Positions 9,270 through 61,193 of a stretch of 64,000 bases of DNA are shown in pieces (the stretch's first letter is position 1; each line of letters opens with the position of its first letter). The translations under genes were made by a program, and so were the position numbers. This DNA comes from Cubamyces lactineus (Eukaryota > Basidiomycota > Agaricomycetes > Polyporales > Polyporaceae). The notes below the pieces were generated by a model. That model saw only the letters and a list, made by a program, of their open reading frames with translations, was not told where the DNA came from and searched no databases. The stretch covers positions 62,001-126,000 of the forward strand of contig JACDTU010000013.1 in the NCBI GenBank assembly GCA_022376465.1, read 5' to 3'.

Positions 9270-11563
9270 TTAGGCGGGGGTGGCAGAACCCGCCGGGCTG
9301 TCGATGCCCATCTTCTTGCGAACGACCTCGAACGTCTTGAGCATCTTCCTCCGCGCCCCCAGGGCGGCGACGCCCTTCGCCTCCAGCGCGGCCTCGTCCA
9401 TCACGACCATGTCACGCCACGACATGCCCTCGAAGTTGGGCGTGTACTTGTGCAGCCGCAGGCTCCGCAGCCATCCCGGCACGTCCTCAAGCAGCTTCGG
9501 GTCGACGTCCTCATCGTCCTTCTTCTCCCGCTGTCCCGGAGATTTCGAGTTCCCGCCCCTGTTGCCCATACCGCCTCGGTTTCCACGCATGTTGTTCTGA
9601 TTCCCGAGACCCATCCCGAACGCGCCCAGTCCGGGCTGTCCAAGCTGCCCGAGCTGGCCAGCGGCGGCCATCTGCATCGCAAGCATCTGCTCAGGAGTAA
9701 GACCCATCGCGGCGAGGTTGGGAACATTGAACATGCTGTTGAACGGGCTGACCGGTGCCATGCCTGCAGCGGCAAGCGCAGCCATGTTGAACCCACCAGT
9801 GCCAGGGAGGCCAAGGGCCGGGTTGTTCATGCCCATGTTGAATCCACCCATACCCAGGCCGTTCATGCTGCCGTCGTCGCTAAACCGGCCGGACGTGTTC
9901 GAAAGCGCCGGGCTGCGCGCGCCACCCCAGCCCGCCTGGCCGCCGAACGCATTGAGGTTGCCAGCCCCGCTGGCGTTGCGCATACCGCCAGACACGCTGC
10001 GCTGGTTTCCGTTGTTATGGCCCTGATTCATATCCTCGTCGTTGCCCTGAGCGCCCTTCGACAGACGGTTGAGCCTCTTCGGCGGATCAGAGATAAGCGG
10101 TACCGCCGCGCCGCCCGAGGAGTTCCAGTCGTTGAGCTTTTGTGCCGCCGCATCAAGACTCTGGTTGGGGTTCCTTGTGTCCTTGAAGATAGGAATGAGA
10201 GGCGTGTTAACCATGCTCGCCCAGCTGCCTCCGGGCATCGGAGACAACTGTTCACCCTCGTCACCACGAGGCGACTTGAGCGCATTGGCGAGGCCGGAGA
10301 AGTCGGTGCTCTTCGGGCGTGAAGTGCCGTTAGACGAGGGGATAGTGATCTCCTGAGCGGGGGACGAAGAACGCTCATCAACTTGGCCAAGTTGGTTGGA
10401 TCCTGAGCCCCAGGTGTTACGGTCTCCGACAGCGGAAGAGAGGGCTGGAGCAGAGATACGATGGGCAGCGTTGCTCGCCTTGAGCTTCGCTCGCTGTTGC
10501 GCAAGGGTGGTTGCAGGGTCATTTCCGCCCGAGTTGTTGACGTTGTTAGCGGAGTCGGGCGAAAGGAACGATGAGCCTGAGAAGTTGCGGGTAGTCGGAG
10601 AGGCAGGCAGGTTCGACTTGAACCCAGGCGACTTCAGGTTCATCTGGGCCAACTTGGCCTCCATCTGACTCTGCATGGAACCTGTCATTTGAAGCAGCAT
10701 TAGTGAGGTATCCCGTTGGCACACATAATATCAATCTATGTACCTCCGACGGCGGGAGAAAGCAGAGCAGTCATAGGGTCGGACCGAGCCATCTGCTGCA
10801 GGACGGTAATGAAGAAACGAATTTGAACTTGCGTAGAATGTTGCAAAAGACTGTAAAGAGCGGCTGTGCGCTCAGCTTCGGAGAGAACCTTGAACCCTGT
10901 TATGAGTGGAGAGTCAGCGCTCAGCGTTACGGGAAACATCCAAAGAGAGTGAAGTTGGGCGCCTGGAATCTATACATAGACACTCCAGTCCAGATCCCCT
11001 CTCGACTACACGCCGTGGTCGTAGATGTCAACATCGGATGCAATGTTGGTTGGAAGGTAGTCTCCGCGCAAATGACGCCACATAGAATAAGCTAATCAAG
11101 CGTGACAGTACGTACATTGCTCGATGGCACTGAGCTCCTCCTTGAAATTGACGTCCAGAGAGGCAGCAGCCATTTCTTCCTGCATGGACGTGAGACATCC
11201 CAATACGACACTGTGGGTGGACGGGCACATACCAGCGTCGCCTCGTAATTCTGAAAAGTCTCGAACCACTGGTCGATAGCCTCCGCTAGACGTCGTATGA
11301 GTACTCGTGTTTAGAACACCAATCAAGCAGCGGGGTTTACCTTCGGGGGTCTGGAACATGCCGGCGCTGCCCAAGAGCTCGCTAGTGGGCCTCGCGCCGC
11401 CGTTGGTCGCACCTGGGCGAGGAGAGGCGGGAGGGAGCCCGCCCTGGGAACCAACCGGGCGAGCAGAGGGACCCATGGAGGCACGGAAGTTGGGGGACCT
11501 GCCGCCGGCATTGCCGCCAGGCGCGGGAGAAACGCTAGGGCTAGGAGGAGCAAGACTAGACAT
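9270..11563 (-). CDS. vts1: Vts1/Smaug-family SAM-domain RNA-binding protein
   Basis: Post-transcriptional regulator whose SAM domain binds CNGG-type stem-loops and recruits mRNA deadenylation machinery (known for yeast Vts1 and fly Smaug). Five exons give about 640 residues. The N-terminus is Ser/Pro/Gly-rich, followed by a conserved helical region ([18 protein letters not shown]..., then [19 protein letters not shown] and [17 protein letters not shown]). The centre is Asn/Gly/Met-rich and disordered, with [18 protein letters not shown] and [12 protein letters not shown]. The C-terminal SAM domain runs from [20 protein letters not shown] to [18 protein letters not shown]. The intron after EQ is unusually long for this window (about 220 nt, GT near 11115, AG near 10897). 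The start ATG at 11563 opens the Ser/Pro-rich N-terminus. Confidence 0.92.
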
Positions 11564-27278: not shown

Positions 27279-29549
27279 TTATAGCTTTTTCTTGCCCACG
27301 AGCGCGTCCTTTGCGCTCTTCGCGGCAGGCTTCGCCCCAACAACCTTCTCCTTCTTTTTCTCCACGCCTGCAACACTCTTCTTCTGCTTCATCTCCTCCG
27401 CGGTCAAGGACGGAGCAGCAGCAGAAGCGGCGGCAGCAGCCTCGAGCGCAGCCTTCTGCTTGCGCTTCATCTTCTTCGCGGGCGTACCCTCCGCCCCGGC
27501 AGGCGTAGCAGGAGCCTTTTCCTCCTGGGCAGCAGACGCAGGGGTGCCCTCAGCCTGAGCCGCATCCGTGATAGCCTTCTGCTTCCGCTTGCGTTGCTTC
27601 TTGCCGGATGGGGTCTCCACGTCCTCTCCAGGCGTCGCAGCATCCGCCTTCGCAGCAGCGGGCGCGGGCGTGGCAGGCTCCGCCTGGGTAGCAAGCTTCG
27701 ATATGGCCGTCGTCACAGGCGTATCGACAACATCACTCTTTGAGCGTTTCTTGCGCTTCCCGCTGGCCGGAGTCTCCGCAATAAGGCCATCGGCAGGGGT
27801 GTTGGGCGGCACAACAGCAGTGCGTGCGGCGGGCGTGGCGGCGGCGTCGTCAAAGAAATCGACCGCAGACGCACGCCGCTTCTTCTTGCTGATTGAGGGC
27901 GTCGCCGGGGCCGCAGCGTCAGCAGCAGACTCAGCGGCTGGTTTGGGTGCGTTGGCTGGTGTGGCGGACGTCGGCGCAGCTGCGCGAACAGACGCGGTGG
28001 CGTCGGACGACTCGGCAGCCGCGAGAGACGCACGAGCCTTTTTCCTCTTCTCTTTCTTTGCAGGTTGGGCGGCAGCGGTAGCCGAGGTGGCGTCGGCGAT
28101 TTGTGCAGCGTTCGAAGTTGCAGAGGTGGATACGGCGGGTGTGGCAGGTGATGCGGAGGAAGCGGCGGAGGCTGGCGTAGCGGGAGCGTTAGTCGCTGCT
28201 TGTGACTTTCTCCGCTTGTGCTTCTTCTCCTTGTCCGCGCCCTCTGCAATAGGCTGAGCGTCGACGGCCTTGTCCGTGTCCTGTGCGTTGCTTGCCTTCT
28301 CCACGGCGTCAGCCTCGGAAGCCACGGCAGGCGTAGCATCGGCGTTGGATTTGCGCCTTTTCTTCTTGGCGGGCTCGCTTGCAGGCGCACTGGACGCAGC
28401 GGCCGGAGCAGGTTCTGTGGCTTTGCCTTTTGCTTTGGTCGACGCAGAGGGCTCTGCCGCCGCCTTAGCCTTCTTCTTCGGCTGCTCCCTCTCCCCCTCT
28501 GTCTCCTCGGCCACTCGCTTCTTGCCTTTGTCCTTCGCGCTCGCAGAAGGCTTGTCTACCTCCATCTCGCCCTCCGAAGCACCCTCGCTATCATCCATTT
28601 CCTCATCTTCGTCTTCGCTCGCGCCAGCGACAAGACCCTCCCAGCGACCACCAGCGTCCGCACTCAGATCGCATTGCCAGACAGGCAGCGCGGCGGACGA
28701 GTTTGTCTTGATGAAGAGACTCTGAATGTTATCCCACCCACCCTTAATGTGCTGCACCACGGCAGGGAGAGCGGTTTCGAGGTTCGCCAAGACCTGCGCA
28801 GGTGTTTGCGCAACTGTGCCGATCTTGACAGAACTGTAGAAGGGTGAACATTTTGTCGATAAACAGTAGATAAAACGACATACGTGCACGTTCCCTGATT
28901 TTGGTGGAAATAGGTGGAGGAGATCGCACGCTCAAGCTCGCCCTTCAGGTCCTTCCGTGTGATGCAGACTGGAATGGGCTGCCTGTAAGAAGAGGTGAGT
29001 GACATCAAGGCGTAGTAATGGCAATGTACGCACTTTTTTGCTTGGAAGAAGGGCTTCCCGAGCAAACCAGGAAGCAAGGGGACGACTCGCTCGTCGGCCA
29101 AGAACAACCCATTCTCCTTCAAAAGCATCCGCCGCGCCTCAAACGGCTTCCACTTGCCCTTCAAATGCTTGATATCGACGACACGAGAGATAAACTTGAT
29201 GCCATGGTTTGCGATGAGGTCCTTGTATTCTCGCTGCGGATCCTTCACAATGAGACACACTGGTGAAGTACGGGGGTCGACAATAGGGTATTTCAGAGGT
29301 CTGCACGATGAATTAGCGTGCGTGCGTGCTTGAGAGGACTGAGACGTACATCTTCGCAGGCTTGAGCTTCTTCTCCGGATGCATGAGCTTTGTGTTCACA
29401 ACGAGCCAGACGTTCTGCTCCTTGCCAGACAAAAGTTGAGTCTCTGCCTTCTTCTCCTCGAACTTGGTTGCGTGACTGATGAGTGCATCAACAGCGCGTT
29501 TGCACTGCTGCAAGGAGACATGTTCGTCGATGAGTGTGTCATTCGCCAT
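27279..29549 (-). CDS. Ribosomal L1-domain ribosome-biogenesis protein (Utp30/Cic1/RSL1D1 type)
   Basis: Nucleolar factor binding pre-rRNA during subunit assembly. Four exons code for about 710 residues. The first 270 form an L1-like domain: LQQCKRAVDALISHATKFEE, NVWLVVNTKLMHPEKKLKP, IPLKYPIVDPRTSPVCLIVK, FISRVVDIKHLKGKWKPFEA, RRMLLKENGLFLADERVVPL, LGKPFFQAKKQPIPV, and VKIGTVAQTPAQVLANLETA. The rest is a very long low-complexity tail, first acidic (ASEDEDEEMDD), then Ala/Thr/Pro-rich with regularly spaced Lys/Arg clusters ending in VGKKKL. The tail is far longer than in yeast Utp30 (274 residues) and resembles other nucleolar tails. The ATG at 29549 gives MANDTLIDEHVSLQQ; the stop is at 27281-27279. 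Utp30 versus Cic1 orthology is not decided. Confidence 0.88.
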
Positions 29550-30267
29550 TGCGAGGAGACCAAGGCAAAAGGTGTCGAGAGTTGGGCAACTGCAGTCGAC
29601 CGCGGCGGAAGCGCGGACATGGTCTAAATTTCTGGCATGTCACGTGGCGTAAAGGCTGATGCTCCGATGTTATCGGAGAACATGGAGCATGGCGGCGCCT
29701 CTGGGAAAAGCCACTCTGTCATACAGACGAAGGATATACCGTGCGCACTGCAGTAAGAAGCGTTGGATAATGCGAACTAATTGATATTATGACCATACAA
29801 ATGCTAAATAGAATGACAGTGACTTCAACAACCATACCACTACAGCTTTCGCCGGTGCCCAAGTATTACAGAACTACATGAAAAGCAGCTTGCTACTATA
29901 ACTAGAGACCCACTATTGCGCCAACGGGGCAGACAAGTACAGTATTGAAGAGATTAGAGTAAAAGTCCTTGCAAAGGGAACAGGGTAACACCTCCGTCCA
30001 CAACGTCGACTATGCTTCTTCGGTATCCAAGCCCCAGAGACGACCCACGGCGGCATGGCCGTGGGGCCATAGGTGGGTTGGTAAGATGATAGGGGAGTGT
30101 TCGCCATGCAATTACGGCACTGGGCTGTGCGCCCGGAGCGGATGTAGTAGAATTCGAGAGATAGCGCGCTGTATGGGACTGCGCCGGAGCACTGAGGGAT
30201 GTGTCCTTCGGAGGGGGATGGGGGGGTGCAGGCCGTGGATGAGCGGTTGATGCGTGAAAGTGTGTGC
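29550..30267. other. Intergenic, L1-domain gene promoter / short-peptide A 3' side
   Basis: No domain-bearing open frame. It holds the L1-domain gene promoter and the 3'UTR of the short gene at 30268-30390. Confidence 0.35.
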
Positions 30268-30390
30268 TCAGAAGAACACTGGAACGACAGCACCCGCGTT
30301 GGTGCGAATGATGTTCTGCGAGGTGGATGATGGTTTCGGCTTCGGCGCATTCTGGGAGCACGAGAGCGGGGTGGACGCCGCGGCGGACAT
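30268..30390 (-). CDS. Short S/T/P-rich peptide ending in the IRT...VFF tail, member A (40 aa)
   Basis: Intronless 41-codon gene of a family I do not recognise. The N-terminus is low complexity (MSAAASTPLSCSQNAPKPKP). The last 17 residues are SQNIIRTNAGAVVPVFF-stop, matching two other short ORFs in this window in the gapless pattern SQxxIRTxA[AG][AT]xx[PA]VFF. There is no hydrophobic signal peptide, no membrane segment and one Cys only. Codons strongly prefer C/G at the third position, as in the window's real genes. A TATA-like CTATAATAT lies about 105 bp upstream, and a stronger GATATAAAG about 235 bp upstream. The ATG context (GATCACCATG) is good. The shared tail, promoter and codon use argue for a real gene despite its size. 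Function is unknown. Confidence 0.68.
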   Translation of the reverse strand: MSAAASTPLSCSQNAPKPKPSSTSQNIIRTNAGAVVPVFF

Positions 30391-30494
30391 GGTGATCGTA
30401 GATAGAACGAAGAAGGTTGAGTTCGAGAGAATTGGACGCGGTGCCTCCGTATTAAGAGTGGATAGGCGGTAGCCGGTATGGAGGAGGCGAAGAG

Positions 30495-30503
30495 ATATTA
30501 TAG
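30495..30503 (-). promoter_or_regulatory. TATA-like box of short-peptide gene A
   Basis: CTATAATAT on the minus strand, about 105 bp before the start codon. An alternative TATATAAAG-type box lies at about 30621-30629, but it would place extra ATGs in the leader. Confidence 0.4.
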
Positions 30504-32031
30504 TGGTCTGAACTCTAGTAGAACCTGGAGGGTGCCCCGAAAGGGGTGGCGGGTCTGCTCTGATGTGAGGAGGTGAACGTCGCTGGGTCAATGGCCAGCA
30601 TCCTGCGCAACATGGCCCTCCTTTATATCGCTGAGGACGCTCGCAGCGCATCTCGCCGCACGCCCGTCATGCACAGGTAACCCGCGCAATCAACGTCAAA
30701 GGAAGCCCGACTCTAGCGCGGAGTGATGCAGAGAATCACGCCTGCGGCCACAGATGCCAGGACCAGAATGCCGCAGTCAGCCTCGAGTGAATAAGGCAGT
30801 GTTCGCTCCCCTTGCATCCACGGCGCAAACGCCGCGTAGAAGCCCAAGGGACGAAACCCGAAAATCATGCGCGCCAATCTTCAGGGGTGCAGCCGAGGAA
30901 GTGCTGGCTGTGCGAAACATTGCTCATGCATATCCCCGGATTACTCGCGATTGCTCCTGTCACTGGACCGATTTGGTATGCGGAACACTGTGCAGCACTG
31001 AGAGACACTCTAAATCAAGGGGCCCGACCGGTGCAATTGTAACGGAGGTGCACTGGAAATAATCCTCGTGAGCGTCAGCAAGAAGTTGTTACCGATGCGC
31101 CATGCGAAGAAGCCCGGACTCTTCCCCTTGGCGCAGGCAAGCTCCCGCGCGTGCACATGATGGAGTGCCATGTTCTACAAGAGGCATAGTGCTCGGCAGG
31201 GGTCCCAACGCCGGACGCCAATGATGATCGGAGGTTGTTACCCACTCTGGACGGATGGCGCTGGGAAGATTTGGGGAAGCAGTGGACCGCAGGCTTCAAA
31301 ACCTGGAAAACATTCGTCAGATACAGAAGGAGGTCAGTCAACAATATCGGAGACAGATAGCAATGTCTGTCGTTTAAGACACCAGTCGTATCCTTCATCA
31401 AATGTTTGACATGCTGATCCTGTTAGCCGCGCGTAGAATCTGCCTGCCACTTCAATGCTGCTGCACGTTGGGCTGAGCGTGCCAGTTACGGAAAGCCTCG
31501 CAATACACTACCTGACAGCGGTTATGAAGTCAGCTCGGCAAAGTTCCTTGTGGTGTTTCGAAAATGGCTTACGATGCCCCGCGCGAGTATCGTAAGGGTA
31601 TCGTTGTTGCGACTCACTTGAGAATTCCGCACGAGAAGCAATATGATGTAGTCATGAAGCTGCAGCCCACTGAGGCGACCTGGGGCAAATGTTGTTCTTC
31701 GAGATGTCCAAGAAGTCGTTGCGACGAACGTTTGAGCGTTTGAAAGCGGGGCGCCTGTAGAGCCGAACTGATCACAGCTCAATCGAACCAAGTCCAGTTC
31801 GGACTCAAGTATCATCTTGGGTTCAACGCTAGAGAGTGATGTCGTCATCGATCGTAAGTACCACTGGTACCTGCTTACCCTGGCCAAGTTGCTTACAAAA
31901 CAGTACTCACAGTCACCGGCATCAGTCCTACGGAACCAAATGCCGGTATATATACTGACCAGCGATATGGAACGTCGCGATTCGAACGTCATCAATCTTG
32001 TATCACCACTACCACCACCACAACGAACACC
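30504..32031. other. Intergenic, short-peptide A promoter to quinone oxidoreductase promoter
   Basis: 1.5 kb with no supported gene besides the promoter elements of gene A. CCCCGAAAGGGG at 30535-30546 upstream of gene A contains an AGGGG/CCCCT stress-element-like core; this is weak evidence. Confidence 0.35.
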
Positions 32032-33629
32032 ATGCGGGCGATTCTCGTTAAGGACGGCAAGGGTCCGGTGGAAAACCTCTATCTAGGCGACGCGGCGCAG
32101 CCTACTCCAAGTCCTGGCAAAGTGCTTGTGAAGGTGATAATGATTGGCACGCCAGGCAGATCTCAACATGGCACCGTGTGACTTACATCCAACATAATCA
32201 GGTCAAGGCCTTCGGTCTCAATCGGATGGATATCCTGCAGCGGGAAGGCAAGTATCCCCTACCGCCAGGGACGTCTGATATCCTGGGAGTCGAATTCTCC
32301 GGCCACGTCGTCAAAGTCGGGGAGGGTGTGCCCGAGTGGAAAGAAGGGGATGAAGTGCTTGGACTTGCTTCCGGCGTAAGTTCCCGCTGCATTCGTCGGT
32401 TCCTGATGGTGGTGTTCAAAACAATAACTGATGGCCATTCTGTAGGGCGCGTACGCCGAGTTTATTGTCGCACCGCACAGGAATTTGATTAGGAAGCCTG
32501 ATTACTTGTCATGGGTCGAAGCCGCCAGCATACCTGAAGTGTTCCTTACAGGTAAATGCCATGCATTGACTGCCCATCTTGTCCGATTGCGGCGTCTGGG
32601 CCCATCCTCACATTGTGAACTGTAACTGTCTCAGTTTGAGAGACACGTCTACCACCACTACGTCGGGTCATGATGATCACACACGACACGGAACGAAACT
32701 CACATTTGCGCGTTTGACAGCGTTCCAGGCTCTCGTCGTCCTTGCGGAAGTCAAGAAAGGCGATCACGTCCTTGTCCATGCTGGCGCTTCAGGCGTTGGG
32801 ATTGCCGCCATTCAGTTGGCGCGTCTGTATGGCGCGTAAGTGTCGACCTGCCGTGTGCCATATCGTTCTGCAGCTTACGGCTATACAGCACGACGGTGAC
32901 AGCTACTGCGTCTACCCAGGAGAAGCTTGATATGGTTCTGTCTCTCCCGCATGGCGCTACGCATGCCGTAAACTACAAGACGCAGGACTTTTCTGAGGAG
33001 GTCAAGAAGATTACGAACGGAAAGGGCGTCGACGTGATCATCGACTTCGTCGGCCAGTCCCACTGGCACAAGAACATCGACTCGTTGGCCTATGACGGGC
33101 GTATGACGTTGCTCGCGACCCTGAGCGGTAACGACACTTATTCGTCCATGCTGGCCTCGAAACTGACAGGTCGCATCTCGACGGCACGCTAGGTGATCAA
33201 GTGCCCAGCTTCAGCCTGAGGCCAATCTTGTATAAGCGCCTCCGTATCCAGGGTTCCACGTTGCGAGCTCGCTCCGAGGACTACCAGGCTCAACTCGTTG
33301 CAAGGTTTGTCGTCCTCAATCCGATGGGTATCGGGGCTGACATACGCTGTTGTAGGTTCAAGAAAGAGGCCTTCCATCACATCACGGGTAGCTCTGGCGA
33401 CGGCCAAATCCGTACATACATTCACAAGGTCAGTACCCTGAGATAGACCGCAGGCCTATTCCCGAGACCGAATGCTGCGACATAGGTTTATCCGTGGACG
33501 GAGATCCAAGATGCCCATCGCGAGATGGAAGCGAACAACAACAGGTATGTGGACCGCGTTATCAAGTGAACGCAAGCAGCGCGCTGAAATCTTACGAGCA
33601 GTGGGAAGATCGTAGTAGAGGTTGTCTAG
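32032..33629 (+). CDS. Quinone oxidoreductase / zinc-independent MDR dehydrogenase (PIG3/QOR type)
   Basis: NADPH-dependent reductase of quinones or enones. Nine exons splice to about 335 residues. The start is [20 protein letters not shown], followed by [20 protein letters not shown]. Then come [20 protein letters not shown] and [19 protein letters not shown], the MDR core without zinc ligands at the catalytic position. The Rossmann motif is [20 protein letters not shown]. Next come [34 protein letters not shown] and [20 protein letters not shown]. The end is [17 protein letters not shown] and SGKIVVEVV. This sequence pattern is the PIG3-like branch (TP53I3/quinone oxidoreductase). Introns are GT-AG and in phase, including one of 66 nt after LSG (GT at 33129). 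The ATG at 32032 follows an ACC-repeat leader. Confidence 0.9.
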
Positions 33630-34952
33630 CCGCTTGATGGAAACCCTCGGCGACTTCAAAGAATCAGGCAGTGCGAAGCTGTTTTCATCGTCTTCATTGC
33701 TGTTGTATTTGAATATCCTAGAGATGTAATATACGACTGCACGGATCCTAGTGAGTAGCCTGTAGTCGCCATATGTGCAATGTTTACATTCATAGGACAT
33801 TTTTGTTAGAAGGAATTTATAGCACATCCTTGTCGGCGACTCAGCGCAACACGTTCCCTATGCATCGCGTCTATCTCGCTACGACAGATATTTCTGGCGT
33901 GCTGTCAAGTGCAGATCTATGACGTCGATTTTCGTTCGTCCTAGACGACGAAGCAATAGGTCGACGTCAATAGAGTACGTCGTATGACGTGTGTAGATGT
34001 CGTGTGAGACAACGTTTACGCCGCTACTGAAGGGTCTCGAGCTAGATGCAAGGTTCTTAGTGCCGGGTTTAGCGCATTCTGCGGCCACTCCAAACTCCGG
34101 GCACCATAGACGGCTTCGACGTCCCCCGTACGACACCTGGCCACCATTTCTCCTTGTTGGAAGGAACCGTATAACGCAGAGCATCGGATAGGTCGCGGGA
34201 GAAGGCTGGTCGCTGTGGAAGCGCTGTACGTCGGATGCTCTTATGAACCCCTCCGAAGACGAACATGCCGAACTTCATCGGCATTCTCTATGACACGTGA
34301 AACCGTATGGAAGAGCGAGGTGCGCGATGCTCATCTGAAATACTGATACCGATTCGCACTCACCACATTCACTCCAGAACGATTCGCAATTGAGTTGCAT
34401 AACTCAAAGTGAGACCGCGACTGGTCTCGCCCGCTTTCATGCAAGGTTCATGGAGGCGCTAAGTGGCTTCTCTCCGGATTCATAACTTGGCGCGATGTGT
34501 TCGGCATTCTAGCATCGGTAAAGAAGCAGGATGTAGAACGATTTGGTACGTGGCCGTTCAACTTCGTTCACTTGGTCATCGCTGTACTCACTGTTCCAAT
34601 GTCGTACCCCCTCACAGCGCCGTCACGTCGTGGCAAACTCTATCGACCATGAGCGCGCGTGTTTGAGTCATAATCCTCTGGGCTCGTGAGCGATCGAGCC
34701 GTCCTGTCTCGCGGCGCGCACCGAATATCACCGCACTTCCGTTCACACGGGCTAGCGGATAGAACATGAGCATGCGAGCATGGTCATACAAGGGCAGTGG
34801 CATTGCTCCTTACGAGTTCCTGACGCGATTGGCCACCTTCTCATAGTGACCCGCGGCATTGGACTACACCCTCGCCGCCCGATCACCTTGACCACTTGGC
34901 GTTTTCGAGGCCACGCTGAAACGAAGGGAGAGGGGCATCTGCTGCGGCATAC

Positions 34953-35586
34953 ATGCCTATCGCCGATTCGTTGCTAAATCGGTTGGAGCGGACAAACGCA
35001 CAAGAGGCTGCACGCGCACAGGCACTGCAGGCGCCGCAAGAAGTCGCGAAGCACATGTCCAGGCGCGCGCTGTGAGTAGCTCCCGTGGATGGTGCCCTAC
35101 CCTACTCATTTTGATGACTTCTCTTCCAGCGAGAACCGCCGGTCGGCGGGGGCTTACGGGCACGTCCTGTCTGAACGCGAGAGTGCGATCCTTGCGAGTG
35201 CGCGCAGCACGGAGCAGGTCAGGCGCAGTCGCGCAGTGTGGTCCGGCGGGTGTACTCGCGACGGCCTGGCGTACCTGCGCCGCATATACCCTCGAGAGGC
35301 TACACATGGCATTTTGACAGACATGCCCTCGCAGCGCCCCGGGTGTATTCTGGAGAATGGTTGGGGTTCCGGCACCCAAATGCGGCGAGCTGCCAGTACC
35401 AGCTTGCCTGACATGAGCGGGGGAAGCAAACCTGCGGTGAGCATATCCGGAACCGACGTGTTGCCATCTGCCATTGTAGAGCGGGTATCACGTTGGTGCA
35501 ACCAACGCTCACTACAGTCATCGGTCCTTCGTAGGGCAAACCCGGAAAACGCTCTGTGTTTGACAGGAGGGCAGCAGCGTAGCTGA
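34953..35586 (+). CDS. Possible two-exon hypothetical gene or gene relic
   Basis: Weak candidate. From ATG 34953 the frame reads MPIADSLLNRLERTNAQEAA, then RAQALQAPQEVAKHMSRRAL, a highly helical sequence. A GTGAGT donor near 35070 and CTTCCAG acceptor near 35130 join it in phase to ENRRSAGAYGHVLSERESAI, then LASARSTEQVRRSRAVW. After that the sequence loses coding character, although the frame stays open to 35586. The helical Ala/Arg/Glu-rich composition and clean splice sites suggest coding origin. I know no family, and a decayed 5' fragment of a larger gene is equally possible. Confidence 0.25.
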
Positions 35587-36426
35587 GTTCACCTTTGTTG
35601 GCAGAATGTTCACAACTAGGATTAGGCGAACAATGCGGCGTGTTCCGCAGGTACCTAGGTGCGTTGTTTGGGTTTCATGAATTATGGACCTTTTTCTCTA
35701 GCGCACTCTTTACGACAGGTTCCCGGAGCGGCGACTGTGATTTTGTGCGCGTATTGAAGGAGAATGTGAAGGGTTTCTGGAGAGATGCTGCCCGATATGG
35801 ACATGCAGATCCGCTCTCCGGTGAGAGACGCTCTCGGACTCGGCGTGAACTCTCGCCACTGGGCGGGCGCAATACGTGCACTCGTGCGAGTACGGCTGAA
35901 GATCGGTACAGGATCAATAATGCGGTAAACGGTGCCAGGTCTGTCAGCAACAGTCTAGACGACTGTCGGTGCTAATGATCTCGCTTGTTGCAGTTCAACA
36001 TATCTGCGAGCCGCCGCCACCGCCGCTTGTGCGCCAGGGAAGGCGGATGATCAGGGTTTTGGTGCTCCGCCTGTGCCTCCGGAGGCACTGCTCGCTTAGG
36101 GAACAAGGCTTCTTTCATATAGCTGGGGCTGTCCAACAGACTATCAATGGTACGTACCTCCGAGTCGAAATCGGGTACGAATTCCCCGAAATCGCAGCCG
36201 TTTGCGGGGTGAGTTCTGGGCACGACAATGCTTGCTTCTTTCGGTCCAAGGTTCAGGTCGTCGGCCCCTGCTGCAGAACATTGAATAGTGACAGCTTCTG
36301 TCGATAGCGCTCCGTCATATAAGGATGCCGCACTCCAACTGACATTCTCCAGCAAACCAAACCCAGCGACCCATCGTCCCCTCGGACATCACCAGTGTCA
36401 ACGACGCATCATCGACACGGTACACC

Positions 36427-36434
36427 TTTATAAC
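36427..36434 (+). promoter_or_regulatory. TATA-like box of short-peptide gene B
   Basis: TTTATAAC on the plus strand, 51-58 bp before the start codon of the gene at 36485. A CCCCT core lies at 36378-36382. Confidence 0.45.
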
Positions 36435-36484
36435 CCGACTCTCCAGCTCTTCCTCGTTCCATACCAACTTCAACTTCACGCATC

Positions 36485-36637
36485 ATGCACACCACGAACA
36501 CAGCTGCTGCCGCCACCACGGCAACTCTGCTCGCTAATGGCCGGCCGACGTCTACCACTTCCCGTCCCCCGTCGCGACCTACATCTCAAGGTGTCATCCG
36601 CACGACCGCCGCCACATCCGCGCCCGTCTTCTTTTGA
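36485..36637 (+). CDS. Short S/T/P-rich peptide ending in the IRT...VFF tail, member B (50 aa)
   Basis: Intronless 51-codon gene. The N-terminus is low complexity (MHTTNTAAAATTATLLANGR, then PTSTTSRPPSRP). The last 17 residues are SQGVIRTTAATSAPVFF-stop, aligning without gaps to members A and C. No Cys, no signal peptide and no membrane helix. A TATA-like box lies just over 50 bp upstream, and the leader (CAACTTCAACTTCACGCATC) has the C/A-rich look of fungal 5'UTRs. It sits alone in a gene-poor stretch, 3.4 kb from member C on the same strand. Function is unknown. Confidence 0.68.
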   Translation: MHTTNTAAAATTATLLANGRPTSTTSRPPSRPTSQGVIRTTAATSAPVFF

Positions 36638-39600
36638 CCCGCGGCGGCCTTTCTGTCTCCCACCCATCTACGGTTAACACGGCGTTCCCGCTGACCGTGC
36701 ACCATACAATAACCCGTCCTCGGCGTATATCGCCATTCTATCCGCGAGCCGTGACGACACGCTGGACACCACCTATCCCCCCGCATCCCCGTGCAATAGC
36801 AGCACTACTCCACATCGCCTTGAGCGGCACATTAGCATCACGGACACGACCTCCGCGCCTTCCATTCCATCGGGGGCTTACCTACTCACCGGTGCCCTTC
36901 GTGGGTATCCGATCGGAGCCCAACGCGCCTGATGCTGAGGGCCGGGGTCCGTCGCACGCGCCGGGGTTGTCGTCTGGGAAGCAAGCGACCAGTGCCCTCG
37001 AGTTCTTCCGAACACAACGAGGACGCAGCGAGGACGGCCATCGAAGTCGGGAGAAGAGATGGTCGAAAACAGAGGGTGGGAGAGGATGAATACGGCGGCA
37101 CCGGAAATGGGACTTCTTGCACGAACCCCGGACGCCCGGCGGAGGGCTCTAGCTTCGCGGATTCTATAATCGATACAGCTCGTGCTTTCTGTAGTAGTGC
37201 CTTGCTCTTGGCTCCCAAAGACAACCAGTTCCTGATCCAATCTGAAGTCCGTCTACGCCGAGCGAGTAGCGTCCTGACAGAGCTCAATGGGAAGCCGTTT
37301 ATAGTCAATTGTAAGAAAAACCGACATCGATGTCCATGTGCGGATTGTCGATAATTGCCCTACTCCGTTCGGCACAGCTTCTTGATCGCGCGGGTAGCGG
37401 TCCGTACAGATTAGTAGGCACAATTATGTGCCATAGCCTCGGGACGTCATCTCGAGTCATTGCCAGAGTTGATCATATGTAGAGTGGTAGCGACAACAGC
37501 GTCTACCGTAGTCGAGCGGCTTGGGCGTTTATGAGGCACAGACAGGGCATTGACTCGCTTCTATGGAGGCCACACCGAGACCATCGGACATTATCACCAT
37601 CGTCAGCTTCCGTACACGCCCGGACCGGGGCGAATGTGAAGGTGGTGTAGTATCGCTGCCGCACCTTGCATGCGCCGAAAGGCTATTTCCAAGTCTGGGC
37701 ATGCTACCATCTACGACCAGCTGGATGATGTGGTCTCGAAGGGCCGGGCGCGGTGGCGGCGGCGACTTACTAGAGCCTGAGTCTCACGGTCAGGGGTGAA
37801 GTTTGAACTTTGTGCATATGCAACGGGGCAGCAACTCACCGTGAATCTTAACGCCTGAGGCCGGCGCCAGCAATGCGTCTGACGCTCTTTTGTGCCATCA
37901 AATTCAGGGACATTCCAGGTCAAAATATACTATGCACTGGCAACGTGTAGATCGTCTCTAAAGAAAGGGATCATGGGTTACAGATGTCGGGAAGCCGTTG
38001 GACCACCCCTAGTCGCAACCGGAAGGATGCTGGGACGATGAACTTACGCACAGCGCGCTCCAGATCTGTCAACGACAAGGGCGCAACGCGGAAGACATAT
38101 TCCGCGAGCGTGGAACTGATGGCAGATGGGCAGGCCCTCTGGGGAACTCATCGACGTGCGGGAACAAGATCTCCGACAGTGGTCAAGGGCCTGTCTAAAT
38201 GACTGATGAGCGTCGGCGGAGTCTCAGCTATGACGCAGGACACATACCGCACCAGATCTGGAGGCAGGTAACCACACGCTCGTGCGATTCATCAACCAAT
38301 GCTGAGCCAGCGACTGGACGAACGATCCCGGTGAACTATGTATGCTGTCAGTCCTTACCACGCTAGCGTGTGGTCGATGCCCCGCTCGCGTCTGGACCCA
38401 GCACGATATATGTTGTGAACATGATGTGCCGTCGGAGCCTACTGGACGGCCCAATGTGCTGCGGTCTTGAAGTCAGCGTGAAAGTACTAATTGGTATATT
38501 GGCACGATCCAGACTCACTTGTGCAGCCTAGCATCTATGCTGCGGTGTTGCTCGACCCATCCAGACCGGAAGGCAATGACGACACACCGCGCACGAAAAT
38601 ATCTCATGCGGACTTTAACAATGCAGCATCTTGGTTCTATAGCGTACGCCCACGCTGTTCGATATCGCCTAGCTTCACGGGTAGGGATAACGTTCGGAGT
38701 CCTCGAGCACCCTCGATAGCTTGTTACTGGGGACTCAAACGTCAGTTTTGACTCTCGACTACCCTCGCCTGCGGCCGGCTTTCGCGACAGAAGATATCAG
38801 AGGCTACGAACTGTTGTAGACATTGCAAACTGTATGCTCTTCAGTTTCAATTTGTCTTCGTATATCTCGTAACAAGCTAAAGTTAGAGACTAGACGGCAG
38901 AGACAGGATACATTCGAGTTCCACCAGACGTAGAGCAAATCGCGATGATACAGGGTCGCGACTCGGGTGTCGGAGTGTGGTGCAGCACGTTCGGCTTGAG
39001 GCAAGCACTGGCGGGTACGTAAGCGCTGGGTTGGGTCAGCGCTTCCTCGCCTTTGGGCTTTTCTTGCCACCATCTCCTCCCCACCATCATGACCATGTGC
39101 AACCTAGTCTACCCGTTCTAAGCGGGACAGACTATGGCCGGAAGCACAATGGAAATGTCAACGTCAGCTCATTGTACAATCTTTGGACCCTGTGGTGCCG
39201 TGATCATCTCTGACTCGACTCAACTAGGCCTTGTCCGATAGTAGGCACCGCCCACAACTCGACTGGCTCACAGCATTTGGCCTCGAGGCCCGAGGTACGT
39301 GCTTTGACGGCCCAAGAACACAGCCAGAACGGTTGAGACGAGTCAAGAGTGTCGTCGTGATGCGCTCGCCCTCGGCGGGGCGCAGCGGCGCAGCCTCACC
39401 GATGGGTGAGGCGGCGAGTCAGCAACTGACTCTAGCGCTCACTGGCGTTGCCGAAGCGTCTTCTATCTTGACCATCTCCCACATGCTGTACACGGTACGC
39501 GTCCTCTCATTCGCAGACGTGTCGTCTTTCTGTCTCCTGTCCGGCGGGAGGGGCCGAAAACACTTGCGCAAGCCGTTTCGTCGCTTGGGAGCCAAGGTTT

Positions 39601-40043
39601 ACGTGACCACACCTGATGAAACGGTGTTTCCATGTGCTGCGGGATCCCTTCCAAGACTGGTACATCGCAGTGAAGTGTGCGGCTTGAGGTCTGGCCGCTT
39701 CCGCAAAATCTGTCTAATCTGCGGGAGCGAACCGCATTCATCGCATAACTTCACAGCATCTGGCAATGGCGCGCTCTCTGTCGTCCTGTCGACTAGTCAT
39801 TCTTGTCCGGATTTTCAGGTACCGGTCCAGAGGAGGTGAGGCTTACGCGGCATACCTGTAACCGCATCACACCACGTCATCGGAACTCCTGTTATTGAAG
39901 AGGAAATATCTACCTATGCTCCGTTTATGGGTCGACGCAGTATAAAGGGATGCGGTGTGTCCACGGGTATGTCCTCAACCCAGTATTCTCCCATCCTCAC
40001 ACACTCAGCACTTGAACTCCAGATTTGACCCTCATCGTTTCTC
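36638..40043. other. Long gene-poor intergenic region between short-peptide genes B and C
   Basis: 3.4 kb. Open frames exist (the longest 39231-39839, plus) but show no domain or splice structure. I see no inverted or direct terminal repeats by eye. It holds the promoter of gene C. Confidence 0.4.
39941..39946 (+). promoter_or_regulatory. TATA box of short-peptide gene C
   Basis: TATAAA in CAGTATAAAGGG, 103 bp before the ATG at 40044. It is the best core promoter match of the three short genes. Confidence 0.5.
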
Positions 40044-40175
40044 ATGATGTTCACTTCGTCGATCTCTCCCGCCTCCTTCTCCCAGTCCAGCTCGACCTCG
40101 AAGCCCTCGAGCTCTTCTGGTTCACAAACCTCTATCCGCACAGCGGCGGCTACACACGGGGCTGTCTTCTTCTGA
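40044..40175 (+). CDS. Short S/T/P-rich peptide ending in the IRT...VFF tail, member C (43 aa)
   Basis: Intronless 44-codon gene starting at tandem ATGs (40044, 40047). The N-terminus is Ser-rich (MMFTSSISPASFSQSSSTSK, then PSSSSG). The last 17 residues are SQTSIRTAAATHGAVFF-stop. It shares S, Q, I, R, T, A, V, F, F at fixed positions with members A and B. Third codon positions are mostly C or G. A TATAAA box sits at 39941. The antisense strand is open over the same bases, but that frame lacks the promoter and the family tail, so I take this strand as the real one. Function is unknown. Confidence 0.68.
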   Translation: MMFTSSISPASFSQSSSTSKPSSSSGSQTSIRTAAATHGAVFF

Positions 40176-42164
40176 ACCACGCGCCGCTTCGTTTAGCTTC
40201 TCGACCTATGTCTACGAATACACTTCGTGCCTTATGGAACGACCATGCAGGCACCTGTCCTCCTACCTTACAGCTCGGCCGTGTAGCCCGTAGCGAATGC
40301 GCGTCTCGAGGCACGTTCGCTGCGACCGGTCTAATCACTACCCCCGTCGAACACATTCGTCGACCTGCGCTCCCCACAACCACCCATCCACACGCTCGCC
40401 TGTCCACCCCAACCTTTCCCGAGCGATCACTGCGATCGAACGTCAAATACTGAAAGGCGCTCCTTCCTTCCACCCGTCTAATGTGCCTCAATGCAGTGCC
40501 TTCGCCGTTCGGTCCGGTGGCTCTCTCATCCCGCGATCACTTCCAGGGGTCCACACACACTGGCCGACCCGCTCCAGGGGGATGACAGGCGGACCGCTCT
40601 GTTCGGATGAGAGCGTCCCCTGCAGGCCCACTCTCACTGCGGTGATTGCGGATGAAGCACCCCGCGGGATTGTCGTGGTAGGCCAGGGGAAGGGCCAGGG
40701 GAAGGGCGAGAGGAAGAATCAGGGGCGCGAAGTTGCGACTACGTCCGGCCGCTCCGGGGACATTCATCCATCCATCTCATGCTACTTCTTTCGGACGCTT
40801 TCTCTCTCGGGCTATTCATCATTAATCACGTAAATATATGCACTGTGCGATCGGCGGACTCGGTACTGTATCATTTACTACTTATATGCCTCGGTGTATT
40901 TCTTGACAGATCCCACAAGTAGCACTATACGGTGCATTCGGACGTATGTACGGCATTATGAATAGAGCCATCATCCAGTCGTCACCGCTTTCCCCTCATT
41001 TGCTTGTTGGCCGAGCAGGAAGTCAAGCAATGATGTAACATGGGGCCGCCCTTAAAGCTGCGACATGAGACATCATTAGCCCGGCTGGATGCCTGCGTAT
41101 CTCAAGAACTCTCTAAGTGCGCCGTTTCAGTCACGGTGTTCATCAATGCGATGGGAGCCTGTGATGCAGATTTGCTGACTTGCATTCAACCTGGGCAATA
41201 GAGATCCCGGCGGCGCATTCGCCGCAACACCCAGCCAGGAATGTTCGTGGACGATACAACTACTAAAATATCCGACGTCGATTGCATCATCGCCCTTCAG
41301 CTTCAGGAACGTAGGGCAAGATGTAGCGAATGACACAAATAGTTGCTCAAAGCCGGAGAAAGATGGGCCCGGCCAGAGGTTGCTCCGCTTGCTCATCGCT
41401 GACAGCGGCAGCTTGCCGGAAATTGAGGAGAACTCCTTGTATCATCGGAGCATCGAAGATAGAATCCATAAGGCTATGTTGCGGGGTAAAGCCTCCGCGG
41501 CCTGACAGTCTTTATCAAAAGGCATGATAATACCATTGAATGATGTGCGACGCCCCAAGGTGCCTGCCGCAGCACATCCGATGTAGCTAAGCGTTTACCA
41601 TCGCTGGTAAATATAAGAGACCATTTCCTTGCTACGAGCGATTCACGAACGACGTATGTACTGGCCCAGGATCCTCCCGCCCAGTAAGCCATTGGGGTCC
41701 TCGGGCACAATAAAAGCCGAAGCCTTCACAGTTCCTCCGCATTCTCGTTCATACCGTATATATTGCTACCTGTACAAGGTAGTTCATGCAAAAGGTTCCT
41801 GTGCAGTTACATAGACTAGTGTCAACAAGTGCTACGGCGAGGCTGCCGGCGCTCCCGGGTCGCTGACTTGCCGGGAGGGTTGACTACCAGATGAAACTTT
41901 GCTATAGTCGCCTGAGTTATTTCGAGTGCTTAGGCAAATAATGGCTGAGAAATATATCGAAATATTAGTCACCGTTCAAGTCTGTGAGCGCGAAGTAGAC
42001 ACAGGGCAAGAGCCATAACTCGGATGTCTTCGGGTGGTGTTTGTGAGTGTTAGGATCAAAAGCTATTGGCCTCCCGATCTCATCTTAGCCGCCCACGGGC
42101 GCTCATCGGCCGCCGCGCTCACTCTTGCGATATACCACCACCATCCGAATATCCATCATCATCC
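40176..42164. other. Intergenic, short-peptide C 3' side to GGTase-I beta promoter
   Basis: 2 kb without a supported gene. It contains the 12-nt tandem repeat at 40681-40716, listed separately. Confidence 0.35.
40681..40716 (+). repeat. 12-nt G-rich tandem repeat, 3 copies
   Basis: Two perfect copies of GGCCAGGGGAAG (40681-40692, 40693-40704) and a third imperfect copy GGCGAGAGGAAG. The runs of three to four G could form a G-quadruplex on the plus strand. Confidence 0.8.
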
Positions 42165-54687: not shown

Positions 54688-56519
54688 ATGGCGACCCAAG
54701 TAGCCCTTCATACCCACGATATTCTGCACGCCATCTTCGAGTACTTCAGTGTAGATCGCTGGCAGTACCGCTTTTCGATATACCGGCGCGATAATCCAGG
54801 GGAAGACGCACGGCGCCAAGCCCTCGCTCGCAGTGCTCGCGTTTGCAAGGCGTTTCGTGATGCTGCCCTTCCGATACTCTGGGGACGTCTCCATAATCTG
54901 GTCCCTTTCTTCCGTCTGCTCTCGACGTGTATTGTCATCAAAGAAAGTCCGATGGGTCCCAAAGACCGCAAGAAATGTATATATGTACGTCGATTGTCAT
55001 TCCTGCTGCAGGGGCGCGACGACCAACGTTTATTTTTGCGCTCTAGTCCCTCGCTGCAGGCCCAGTCCGACCAGGAGAACTACAACGGCTGCGAGCCTAT
55101 GGCGCCCTTATACATACCGTTGGAGGAAGCACCCAGGCCTCGTTCACTACGAAGGGCTTCTTTGACATTGTCGATGGTTCTTCGCTTGCCATCCTGAGCG
55201 CTCTGGTCGGGGACACACCGGAGGCAATCCTGCCAAACCTCCGCTCCTTGTCTTGGCCATTCTCGTCCACATCGGATCCTATGGCCCTCAGGGTGCTCTT
55301 GTCTCCATCTATAAAATCACTACACTTCGAAACCGGCTCTGAGAGGGTGAAATGGCAACCTCTGCTCGAACAGGTACTTCACGCATCACTCCGGGCTACA
55401 CCCCACCTAGATCATCTAACGATCAATTGCGCTGCCCACTTCTGCGATCTACGACTGTCCTCTTCGACCACTCTTCTTATATCCGAGCTGCGCTCGCTGC
55501 GTAGCTTGGTTCTCTTGTTCCCTACATACGAGGATTGGAACGCGATCAGCTCGGACGTCATGCTAGACGCGCTGTCTCTCCTTGCCCCGCTCACCACTCT
55601 CGAGCGTCTGGAGTTTCGACCTGGATACGTTATCGAGACTTCCAAAGCACCTTCCTGGAGCTCTACACGCCGGTCCTTATTCCCAAATCTGCAAGAATTG
55701 AAGCTGCATCGGGTCAACTGTCGACAAAGCCTCCACCACCTCTTCGAGATGTTGCAAACGGAAACGCTCCGCAGCTTCGAGGCCACGTTCGACTACGCCA
55801 ACGACACCGCCTGCCATAAGACGTTTGAGTCGCTCGCGCGCTGCTTCCCTGGATTACGAAGTCTGCGGTGCATCATGAAGTACATGTATGAAGAGCGGAA
55901 CCAATCATCCAGCAGCGCGCCGTCGTTGCGCGAGCTCATCTCACCCCTGCTCACTGTGCATTGTATGGAGGCAGTGATATTACCGGGTGAGATTCGTCCT
56001 CGGTGCACTGTAGGCGACACGGACCTCGACGCTATGTCCGCGGCTTGGCCTCGTCTTCGAATATTGGACCTTGGCGAGTACCCTTTCACACCTTCTCCTC
56101 GAGGGTTGAAGGGAATTGGCATCAACACACTCGCGCTATTCGCCACCAGGTGCCCCAACCTGGAGCGGCTCTCGTTGTCCAGCTTTGACATGCAGTCCCT
56201 CGATGCTCTTGTCGAGCCCCACGACGAACTCCCTTGCACGAAGCACGGGCTTCGTCACATCTCTTTCAGAGCGTTGCATGGCACCGAGGATGGCTGTATT
56301 CGTTGTGCGCATATCCTGGACCGGCTGTTCCCTCATCTCAGCGTCGTCGACACTCTGGTTGGTCTGATCAGACCTGGAAGGACGAGCACCATGGACCTCT
56401 ACGCACAGCCGAGGTGGAAAGGTAACCCTGACCATATCCTAAAGTACAGCTTGTTCTTGTCGATCCTGACGTACCAGGACACGAGATGGCATGATCCATG
56501 GGTCGACTATGGTTTATAG
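54688..56519 (+). CDS. F-box protein with LRR-like C-terminal array, paralog 1
   Basis: Likely substrate adaptor of an SCF ubiquitin ligase. Exons 54688-54984 and 55047-56519 give 589 residues. The F-box spans about residues 8-70: HDILHAIFEYFSVDRWQYRF, then ALARSARVCKAFRDAALPIL and WGRLHNLVPFFRLLS, the basidiomycete F-box-like pattern ending in the LW motif. The remainder is leucine-rich, with irregular LRR-type strands (LPNLRSLSWPFSS, SPSIKSLHFETG, LDHLTINCAA, LERLEFRPGYVIE, FPNLQELKLHRVN, WPRLRILDLGEYPF, CPNLERLSLSSFDM). The correct acceptor is at 55046 (CTCTAG), not the nearby CTGCAG; only this choice keeps the paralog alignment (ELQRLRAYGALIHTV). It is the first of three tandem copies; the alignment to the third is clear through both exons. 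Confidence 0.85.
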
Positions 56520-57026: not shown

Positions 57027-58247
57027 ATGGCCACTCACCAGACGCTATGCAATGAGGATATCCTCCACCGCATCTTTTCAAGGTTGAATGTAGACCAATT
57101 CGGCTATCGACGCAGCGACCCACAGCGCTCGGAGCGTGTACGCCGCTAGGTCCTGGCTCGAAGTGCTCGCGTTTGCAAAGCCTTCCGCGATAACGCCCTT
57201 CCCGTCCTCTGGGCACGTCTCCACAACCTCGCACCCTTCTTCCGTCTGCTTTCTACATGTACGGTCGTCAAGGAGACATACTTAGGACCAAGGGTCAGCA
57301 GGAAACGCGTACATGTGAGCTCGTCGTCTGGCAAACAGTACTAATAGAAGTTTGAGCTAACCTATGGCCTGCCGTTCTCTCGTGACTAGGCACTGAGTGA
57401 GGGCACAGTACCACAGGAAGAGATAGAACGTTTACGCTACTATGGTGTGTTCATACGCGTCGTTGAATGGAATCGCCACGCAACGCCCAACACGCCGGGA
57501 TATCATGATCACATCGAGGGATCCTCATTGAACCAGCTGCGCCTGCTGCTTGGCGACACGCGAAATACCCTCCTGCCAAACCTCATTAGCCTGTCGTGGA
57601 AGCTTACATTGACTCAGCACCCCGCCGCGCTATCTATCCTCATGTCGCCCACACTGAAGACCCTCCGGGTAGACATGGTCTACGAGAAAGGAGAGTGGCA
57701 GCCATTCCTCGAACAACTCCTCACCGCGTCGCTCCCCATTGCACCAGATCTAGGGTACCTATGCCTCAACTGCACTGCGTACTACTCCGAGCTGCGAGTA
57801 TCTCCGGATTTAACACGCCCCATCTCCAAGCTGCGTTCCCCGCGCAGCTTGGGTCTCTTGTTCCCGACACACAATATCTGGAACGAGATCCGCTCTGACA
57901 CCATGCTGGATGTATTGCGGCTGCTTGCACCTCTCGAGCACCTCGAGTATCTCGAGTTCCGTCCGGGATACATCGTCGAGGGCTCAACAACACCATCCTG
58001 GATCTCAGAAGAACGCGAACGCCTCTTCCCGAACTTGCAAGAGCTTAAGCTCCATCCAGTCGAATGCGCTCCGTCTGCTCGTCTTCTGTTTGAAGCGCTA
58101 CGGACGCCGAGCCTTTTACGTCTCGAGACGCAGTTTGGCTTTGGTGGCGCCATCGCGCTTCAGGAGACCTTTGGGACAGTCGCACGCTGCTTTCCCAACC
58201 TTCAAAGCGGATGCGACGGGAGCGGCTACGTTCCTTGGAGAGGCTGA
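57027..58247 (+). pseudogene. F-box paralog 2, broken copy
   Basis: Middle member of the tandem. It aligns closely with paralog 3: MATHQTLCNEDILHRIFSRL, then RRSDPQRSERVRR, then an in-frame TAG at 57147-57149 where paralog 3 has GAG (codon 41, Glu to stop), and then LARSARVCKAFRDNALPVLW. Exon 2 (from about 57392) reads on without frame loss: FIRVVEWNRHATPNTPGYHD, SLNQLRLLLGDTRNTLLPNL, LRSPRSLGLLFPTHNIWNEI, LEYLEFRPGYIVEGSTTPSW. It stops matching after CFPNLQS (about base 58208). There the last 230 or so residues of the family are missing and unrelated sequence follows to a stop at 58245-58247. Two lesions, a nonsense codon and a 3' truncation, make it a pseudogene, although the rest of its frame is intact, so decay is recent. 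Confidence 0.8.
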
Positions 58248-59402: not shown

Positions 59403-61193
59403 ATGGCGACTCACCAGGCTTTGAAGAATGGGGATATCCTCCATTGTATGTTCTCGAAGTTCAATACACACCAATTCGACTATCGACGCAACGACCTCCA
59501 GCACTCGGAGCGTGCGCGACGCGAGGCCCTGGCTCGAAGTGCCCGCGTTTGCAAAGCCTTCCGCGACGCCGCCCTTCCGATCCTATGGGCGCGCCTCCAC
59601 AACCTCACACCCTTCTTCCGACTGCTCTCTACGTGCATAGTCGTTCAGGAGACGTACTTGGGACCTAGAGTTAGCAAGAAATGTGTATACGTGAGCTCAT
59701 CGTCTTGCAAATCGTGATCTTGTCTGACCTGTCGGATATTCCCTTGTTACTAGGCCCTAGGTGAGGATTCGGTGCGACGGGAAGAAATAGAGCGACTACG
59801 GCACTATGGTGCGCTCATACGCGCCGTTGAATGGAACAATTACGCCACGTCCGACACACCGGGACACCATGACTACATCGAGGGTTCCTCACTCAAGCAG
59901 CTGCGCCTTCTGGTCGGCGACGTACCATCGGATCCCCTCCTACCAAATCTTGATACCCTGTCGTGGAAGCTCACATTGATCAAGGACCCCGCCTCCCTAT
60001 CCATCCTCATGTCGCCGGCGCTGAAGACCCTCCAGATAGACTCGGTCTATGACAAGGGGGAGTGGCAGCCTCTTATCGAGCAGCTCCTGCCCGCGTCGCT
60101 CCCCATTTCCCCGAACCTAGAGCACCTACGCCTCAACTGCACTGCGTACTACTCCGAGCTGCGCCTGTCCCCCGAGGCCACACGTCCCATCTCCGAGTTG
60201 CGTTCCCTGCGCAGTCTGACTCTCTTGTTCCCTACACACGAGACATGGAACGAGATCCGCTTGGACGCCGTACTGGATGCACTGCAGCTGCTTGCGCCTC
60301 TCACACGTCTCGAGCGCCTTGAGTTCCGTCCTGGGCACATCGTCGCGGGCTCAACGGCACCGGCGTTGAGCTCACGAGGCGACCCGCTCTTCCCGAACCT
60401 GCAGCAGCTTAAGTTCCATCAAATCAGCTGTGGACCCTCCAGTCATGCCCTGATCGAAGCACTGCGGACGCCTAGCCTGCGACGGCTCGAGGCGTCCTCT
60501 GAATACCGCAACAACGCCGCGCTGAAGGACATGTTTGCGGCAGTGGCCCGCTGCTTTCCCAACCTTCAGAGCATCTACAGTATGATTAGTCAAGACGACG
60601 AAGCCGACAGGTCAGAATACGACCGGCAGAGCCCGCTCGAAGAGATCATCTCCCCTCTGCTGAGCGTGCGTTCGATGGAGATGCTGGCCATCCTGGGCGA
60701 AATACGGCCTCGCCACACTGTCGGGGATGCCGACCTGGAGGCCATCTCCGCCGCTTGGCCCCGTCTCCAAGTGCTAGACCTGGCCGGCTTTCCTCCCCCG
60801 TCGACTCCGGATGGGCAACGTTTGTACATCGGGATGTCCCCCTTGGCGTCCCTCGCGACCAGGTGCCCCGGCCTGCAGCGTCTCGTGCTGGCCAGCCTCG
60901 ACATGATGTCGCTCAGCACCTCTCGCGCACTCGAGGACGAATATCCCCGCACGGACAACCAACTGCGCTCCCTCACCTTCCGGGAGGTGCATGGGACGGA
61001 GGCGGACTGCGTGCGCTGCGGACGCGCGCTGGATCGGCTGTTCCCGCACTTGAACGTCGTGAAAGAACTCGTCGACGGCACCCTACCGGGAGGCCTCAAC
61101 ACGACGCAGGCGTATGCACAGGTGCACAGTCCTCATTCGCTTCGGTACAAGCTGTTCTCGACTATCAAGGCGTACCAGGACGCGAGAAACTAG
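59403..61193 (+). CDS. F-box protein with LRR-like C-terminal array, paralog 3
   Basis: Intact third copy: exons 59403-59690 and 59754-61193 give 575 residues. The F-box starts MATHQALKNGDILHCMFSKF and continues ARREALARSARVCKAFRDAA, then LPILWARLHNLTPFFRLLS. The leucine-rich part includes SLKQLRLLVGD, LPNLDTLSWKLTLIKDPASL, SPALKTLQIDSVYDKGEWQP, ISELRSLRSLTLLFPTHETW, LTRLERLEFRPGHIVAG, FPNLQQLKFHQISCGPSSHA, WPRLQVLDLAGFPP and CPGLQRLVLASLDMMSLST. The ending RLFPHLNVVKELVDGT matches paralog 1. The single intron has GTGAGC/CTAG ends at the same place as in paralog 1. It is presumably an SCF adaptor; target unknown. Confidence 0.87.

Follow-up and report, generated by a model that had tools for sequence, protein, structure and literature searches.

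Three tiny open reading frames (ORFs) in the window, the whole 64,000-nucleotide stretch of Cubamyces lactineus DNA analyzed here, form, as judged from their sequences, a real protein family with a conserved C-terminal tail. The three copies (A, B, and C; Table 1) are paralogous, single-exon ORFs encoding basic microproteins without acidic residues, and the family looks real because the same 17-residue ending is also present in proteins from other sources. With a probability of roughly 0.5, we read the products as small, disordered proteins whose free C terminus would dock on a conserved, putative partner. Annotation usually drops ORFs of such short length; the family is apparently undescribed and offers a test case for the number of functional microproteins hidden in mushroom genomes.

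Three ORFs Share a Stop-Anchored Tail

The window is part of one contig (C5) of a genome of 36.3 Mb in 43 contigs. Retranslation reproduced exactly what the first-pass annotation had given for the ORFs, namely their coordinates, strands (with A on the minus strand), lengths (40, 50, and 43 residues), and tails; each ORF, used as its own query, was recovered once in its own genome. Ser, Thr, Ala, and Pro make up 53 to 64% of residues. Dibasic sites are absent from all three copies, and visual inspection shows no apparent signal peptide.

Table 1. Positions of the three ORFs, their tails, and the upstream TATA-like elements in the window
Feature	Position	Strand	Description	Remarks
Copy A (A-type)	30268..30390	-	40 codons + TGA	Relatives P0004, P0005, P0006
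Copy B (B-type)	36485..36637	+	50 codons + TGA	Relatives P0007, P0008
Copy C	40044..40175	+	43 codons + TGA	Upstream part akin to A-type
Tail of copy A	30268..30321	-	17 codons + stop	SQNIIRTNAGAVVPVFF
Tail of copy B	36584..36637	+	17 codons + stop	SQGVIRTTAATSAPVFF
Tail of copy C	40122..40175	+	17 codons + stop	SQTSIRTAAATHGAVFF
TATAAA before copy A	30622..30627	-	237 bases before start (TATAA also at -112)	Consensus match only
TATAA before copy B	36429..36433	+	56 bases before start (another at -167)	Weak consensus match only
TATAAA before copy C	39941..39946	+	103 bases before start	Consensus match only

As noted at first pass, nine of the 17 tail columns are identical across A, B, and C (pairwise identities: A-B, 10/17; A-C, 9/17; B-C, 11/17). 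Four outside relatives (P0004, P0005, P0007, and P0008) bring the tail-bearing members to seven; a further relative, P0006, is left out because its annotated C terminus departs. The last 17 residues follow the pattern S-x-x-[IVS]-I-R-x-x-A-x5-V-F-F-COOH, with S1, I5, R6, A9, V15, F16, and F17 invariant and the tail free of indels in 7/7 members; length variation is confined to the region upstream. The nine positions hold within the window, but two of them are not family-wide, since Q2 and T7 are both changed in P0007 and P0008, and T7 in P0005 too. The tail is more conserved than the upstream part in all nine pairs compared (B vs. P0008: tail, 13/17; upstream, 15/35 columns), the smallest margin being that of P0004 vs. 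P0005 (tail, 14/17; upstream, 19/24).

Outside Relatives and Two Subfamilies

Three profile searches of protein databases (threshold E ≤ 10) yielded five distinct outside relatives: P0004, P0005, P0006, P0007, and P0008. Profile A1 (A, B, and C) kept 4 proteins of 48 candidates; profile A2 (B, P0007, and C) kept 2 of 95, of which one was a row of the profile itself; and profile A4 (P0008, P0004, and P0005) kept 3 of 18, all own rows. The European Nucleotide Archive (ENA) proteins P0004 and P0005 (41 residues) match copy A along the whole length and, as queries, do so at E = 2.9e-11 and 1.4e-11 (E-values for one genome). Two further ENA proteins, P0007 (46 residues) and P0008 (49 residues), match copy B. 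P0007 had E = 0.09 in the profile A1 search and draws independent support from its match to copy B (68% identity, E = 4.3e-7 for one genome); the corresponding value for P0008 is 3.3e-6, again for one genome. Copy C has no closer outside relative and is weakly matched by P0004 (E = 0.024).

The fifth relative, P0006, is the hypothetical protein FKP32DRAFT_1671470 of Trametes sanguinea (Polyporaceae; E = 3.5e-5). Its first 29 residues match copy A, with 73 to 74% identity where aligned and including KPKPSSTSQN-x-IR, but the annotated C terminus departs after VIR and is without VFF. Comparison of the sequences suggests that the public gene model probably includes a falsely predicted intron and thereby loses the conserved tail.

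The first-pass annotation knew of no named family for these ORFs, and indeed none of seven members scored above a curated Pfam or NCBIfam cut-off; a weak CBM13-like match on copy B reached E = 0.044 and 14.4 bits vs. a cut-off of 30. An Rfam scan of positions 29000-41500 gave no matches, and a profile search of the PDB gave one hit (E = 3.6) that is not credible and no solved relative. Eight queries (P0001, P0002, P0003, P0004, P0005, P0007, P0008, and the 17-residue B tail) confirmed no genome copy beyond A, B, and C, in a search of low sensitivity: seven of the eight recovered one copy only, and P0004 recovered two. A weak extra match of P0004 on contig C23 (E = 0.75) was rejected, as a tail was not found at its locus. 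The exhaustive scan for copies covered ~256 kb of the 36.3 Mb, and others may lie elsewhere.

Upstream of the tail, the ORFs had been described as rich in Ser, Thr, Ala, and Pro and unalignable. The composition is as described, and B indeed aligns with neither A (p = 0.14) nor C (p = 0.08); A and C, however, are alignable (p = 0.0018), as are P0004 and P0005 with C (p = 0.0008 and p = 0.0004, respectively). A-type members and C have in common a block that reads roughly [TS]P.S[CYF][ST]Q....KP.SS; the B-type block is LANGRP or LVSGRP, followed by a stretch with PSRP. By these alignments copy B is a second subfamily, apart from A/C. The one conserved, stop-anchored tail that both subfamilies carry provides a concrete 17-residue bait for finding a partner.

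Tail Recurrence Exceeds Chance

Any single pair of tails could be chance similarity of non-coding ORFs: the pairwise identities are close to the chance maximum of 8 to 10 for tail pairs in 30 windows simulated under a Markov-1 model. The signal above chance is that the same columns recur across A, B, and C and their outside homologs. We built a profile from the tails of P0004, P0005, P0007, and P0008, excluding the window copies, and scanned the window plus 192 kb of contig C5 (~256 kb of 36.3 Mb, less 5000 N). B, A, and C took ranks 1 to 3 among 8043 stop-ended 17-mers (scores of 49.2, 48.1, and 29.4; next, 6.0) and were also top of 306,622 open 17-mers of any kind, where the next scored 16.5 vs. 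29.4 for C. A previous profile, which had A, B, and C among its rows, led to the same picture but was circular. In ~256 kb, four open frames that are 25 codons or longer end in FF*, and three of the four are copies A, B, and C. The ranking and the whole-genome matches of P0004 and P0005 to A and of P0007 and P0008 to B refute chance unless the database proteins share the window's species, an origin disfavored by their upstream identity of 43 to 67% to A or B; chance similarity is hardly credible.

Selection, Coding Signal, and Upstream Elements

Paralog selection was estimated by the NG86 method over the 17 tail codons of the three pairs, where 13 to 14 synonymous sites per pair make for rough numbers. 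The dN values are 0.29, 0.39, and 0.30 vs. dS that is saturated, 2.09, and 1.36, the same direction in all three pairs; the differences at codon positions 1/2/3 number 4/5/12, 5/6/10, and 5/4/9. Such low replacement change beside high to saturated synonymous change indicates purifying selection, acting on the protein sequence of the tail in old duplicates. Together with the homologs elsewhere, this pattern bears out the original claim that these tiny ORFs are a true family united by a conserved C-terminal tail.

It also bears on a third reading of the tail, as a C-degron: the hydrophobic VFF end, found in 7/7 tail-bearing members, would shorten the life of the protein, giving pulse signals or keeping products low. 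Degradation determinants of noncanonical proteins have been the subject of published work. A generic hydrophobic degron, however, would need neither Ile-Arg and Ala at set distances nor low dN across the whole tail, and we consider this reading unlikely.

The coding signal of A, B, and C is weak. Their per-codon coding scores are 0.168, 0.095, and 0.085, all above the 90% quantile of longer ORFs (0.077, n = 701), and six of seven downstream frames scored at most 0.030; on the same scale two known yardstick exons are also low (-0.010 and 0.042). The synonymous-codon score of the ORFs is reached by 7 to 14% of random open stretches, and a cruder, ill-scaled codon score, which flagged no coding segment at 22-52 kb, by 13 to 25%. 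The G/C-ending codons pointed out at first pass are present (shares of 0.78, 0.64, and 0.72 in A, B, and C), but shares at least as high occur in 8%, 37%, and 17% of random open stretches, so this signal is slight.

The TATA-like boxes attributed to all three copies are weaker than claimed: TATAAA precedes A and C, but B has TATAA only. Elements were sought within 250 bp upstream, and 2.1% of random 250-bp windows contain TATAAA and 8.8% TATAA. Upstream ATGs lie at -223 and -211 before A, at -160 before B, and at -128, -117, -94, and -75 before C, the last opening a short frame that ends at -18; depending on the transcription start, the ORF thus need not be the first. The 1-kb upstream stretches of A, B, and C all contain the 9-mer CTCTAGCGC (on either strand), at unrelated distances; its presence may be due to chance. 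A scan of 30000-31000 for bacterial-type promoters and terminators, whose models are inapplicable to fungi, gave nothing.

Genomic Setting

I-R, A, and VFF keep a constant spacing from the stop codon, which implies that the tail is read by way of its free C terminus or by the terminating ribosome. The latter is the main rival explanation, in which the tail, in the ribosome exit tunnel, would stall termination at TGA and so control a downstream ORF or mRNA stability. Conservation that runs up to the stop codon, without indels separating it from the conserved residues, fits this proposal, as do the TGA stop of all three copies and the gene for an L1-domain ribosomal-type protein (Pfam matches) that follows A on the minus strand, its first ATG ~720 bases past the stop of A as read from ORF positions. 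For B and C, however, no main ORF was recognized in the frames examined: a Pfam scan of four downstream ORFs gave nothing at E = 0.05, and only one of five scored frames is coding-like (36678-36929, without Met). B and C also carry TATA-like elements at -56 and -103. Arrest by the nascent tail is, in our estimation, rather unlikely; we prefer the free C terminus because little after B and C is coding-like and a separate TATA-like element precedes every copy.

The interval from A to B contains a zinc-binding dehydrogenase, and farther out are a kinase exon and carboxylesterase-like and glycogen-synthase-like exons, the latter two below cut-off; none of the eight ORFs scanned in the 34-44 kb interval matched Pfam at E = 0.05. 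An antizyme-like frameshift gene was considered and rejected, there being no Pfam match at E = 0.05 in the other-frame ORFs overlapping A (29954-30451 and 29913-30497, minus strand), B (36538-37089), or C (40016-40453). Elsewhere in the window, ORF 9270-10730 (minus strand) has a C-terminal SAM domain. A repeat with copies ~2.4 kb apart, at about 57.4-57.7 kb and 59.8-60.1 kb, has matching stop-ended tails on both strands and sits inside ORFs 57390-58247 and 59754-61193; a leucine-rich-repeat-like ORF (55047-56519, below the Pfam cut-off) precedes its first copy.

Precursors of secreted or modified signaling peptides, pheromone-like or RiPP-like, are typically encoded by tiny, clustered, single-exon genes, a description that also suits A, B, and C. 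The three copies nevertheless have neither a CaaX end nor a dibasic site. Matches to the pheromone receptor STE3 number at least 15; all 15 of those listed are on another contig, C14, and none listed is on C5, which argues against a pheromone locus. With VFF closing every tail-bearing member, the earlier view that these are not CaaX pheromones stands, and a signaling precursor of any such kind is very unlikely. The STE3-like receptor exons cluster at G000:C14:394427-426723, about five genes by spacing.

A Candidate C-Terminal Docking Peptide

Docking by the free C terminus, our favored reading, starts from features seen directly: the ORFs, their homologs, selection on the tail between paralogs, and its fixed spacing to the stop codon. 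The variable Ser/Thr/Ala/Pro stretch would act as a flexible leader and the last 17 residues as the docking peptide, with a conserved partner protein or complex binding the face made up of Ile-Arg...Ala together with the free Val-Phe-Phe terminus. The microprotein may thereby modulate, or compete for, its partner. We infer, beyond these features, that the ORFs are expressed, that the products are disordered in the cell, and that a partner exists and is modulated. An AlphaFold2 prediction from the seven-row alignment (pLDDT = 63.8, pTM = 0.12) lists no helix or strand, and DSSP returned nothing; this result accords with a motif as opposed to a domain, and the microproteins of copies A, B, and C are probably disordered, low confidence in itself being no proof of disorder.

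Counting against docking are the upstream ATGs, the weak coding signal, and the stop-anchored conservation, which fits a ribosome-arrest peptide equally well. PCNA-box, calcineurin-docking, and kinase pseudosubstrate motifs were set aside, as their spacing, as generally described, does not fit. More tentatively, and as a possibility that we hold to be somewhat doubtful, the tail may be one 17-residue C-terminal key for a single conserved lock protein, carried in a fungal lineage by a few paralogous microproteins whose A- and B-type heads vary regulation or location, and which gene models miss or distort.

Comparison with Known Systems

The fungal arginine attenuator peptide is an arrest peptide from a tiny ORF. 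It and other fungal arrest peptides share with A, B, and C the tiny ORF and the stop-anchored conservation; unlike those systems as generally described, B and C have no recognized main ORF downstream. Fungal CaaX mating pheromones are likewise tiny, single-exon, and present in several copies, whereas A, B, and C are without a C-terminal CaaX and unlinked to the STE3 matches. The Pleurotus ostreatus small proteins of PMC5674062 are, by that paper's description, also small basidiomycete proteins, but they are annotated as secreted, whereas inspection of A, B, and C by eye showed no apparent signal peptide. Titles and abstract openings in one open-access library gave no account of the tail family, and A, B, and C appear to represent a new family within a known general class, that of microproteins with a C-terminal motif.
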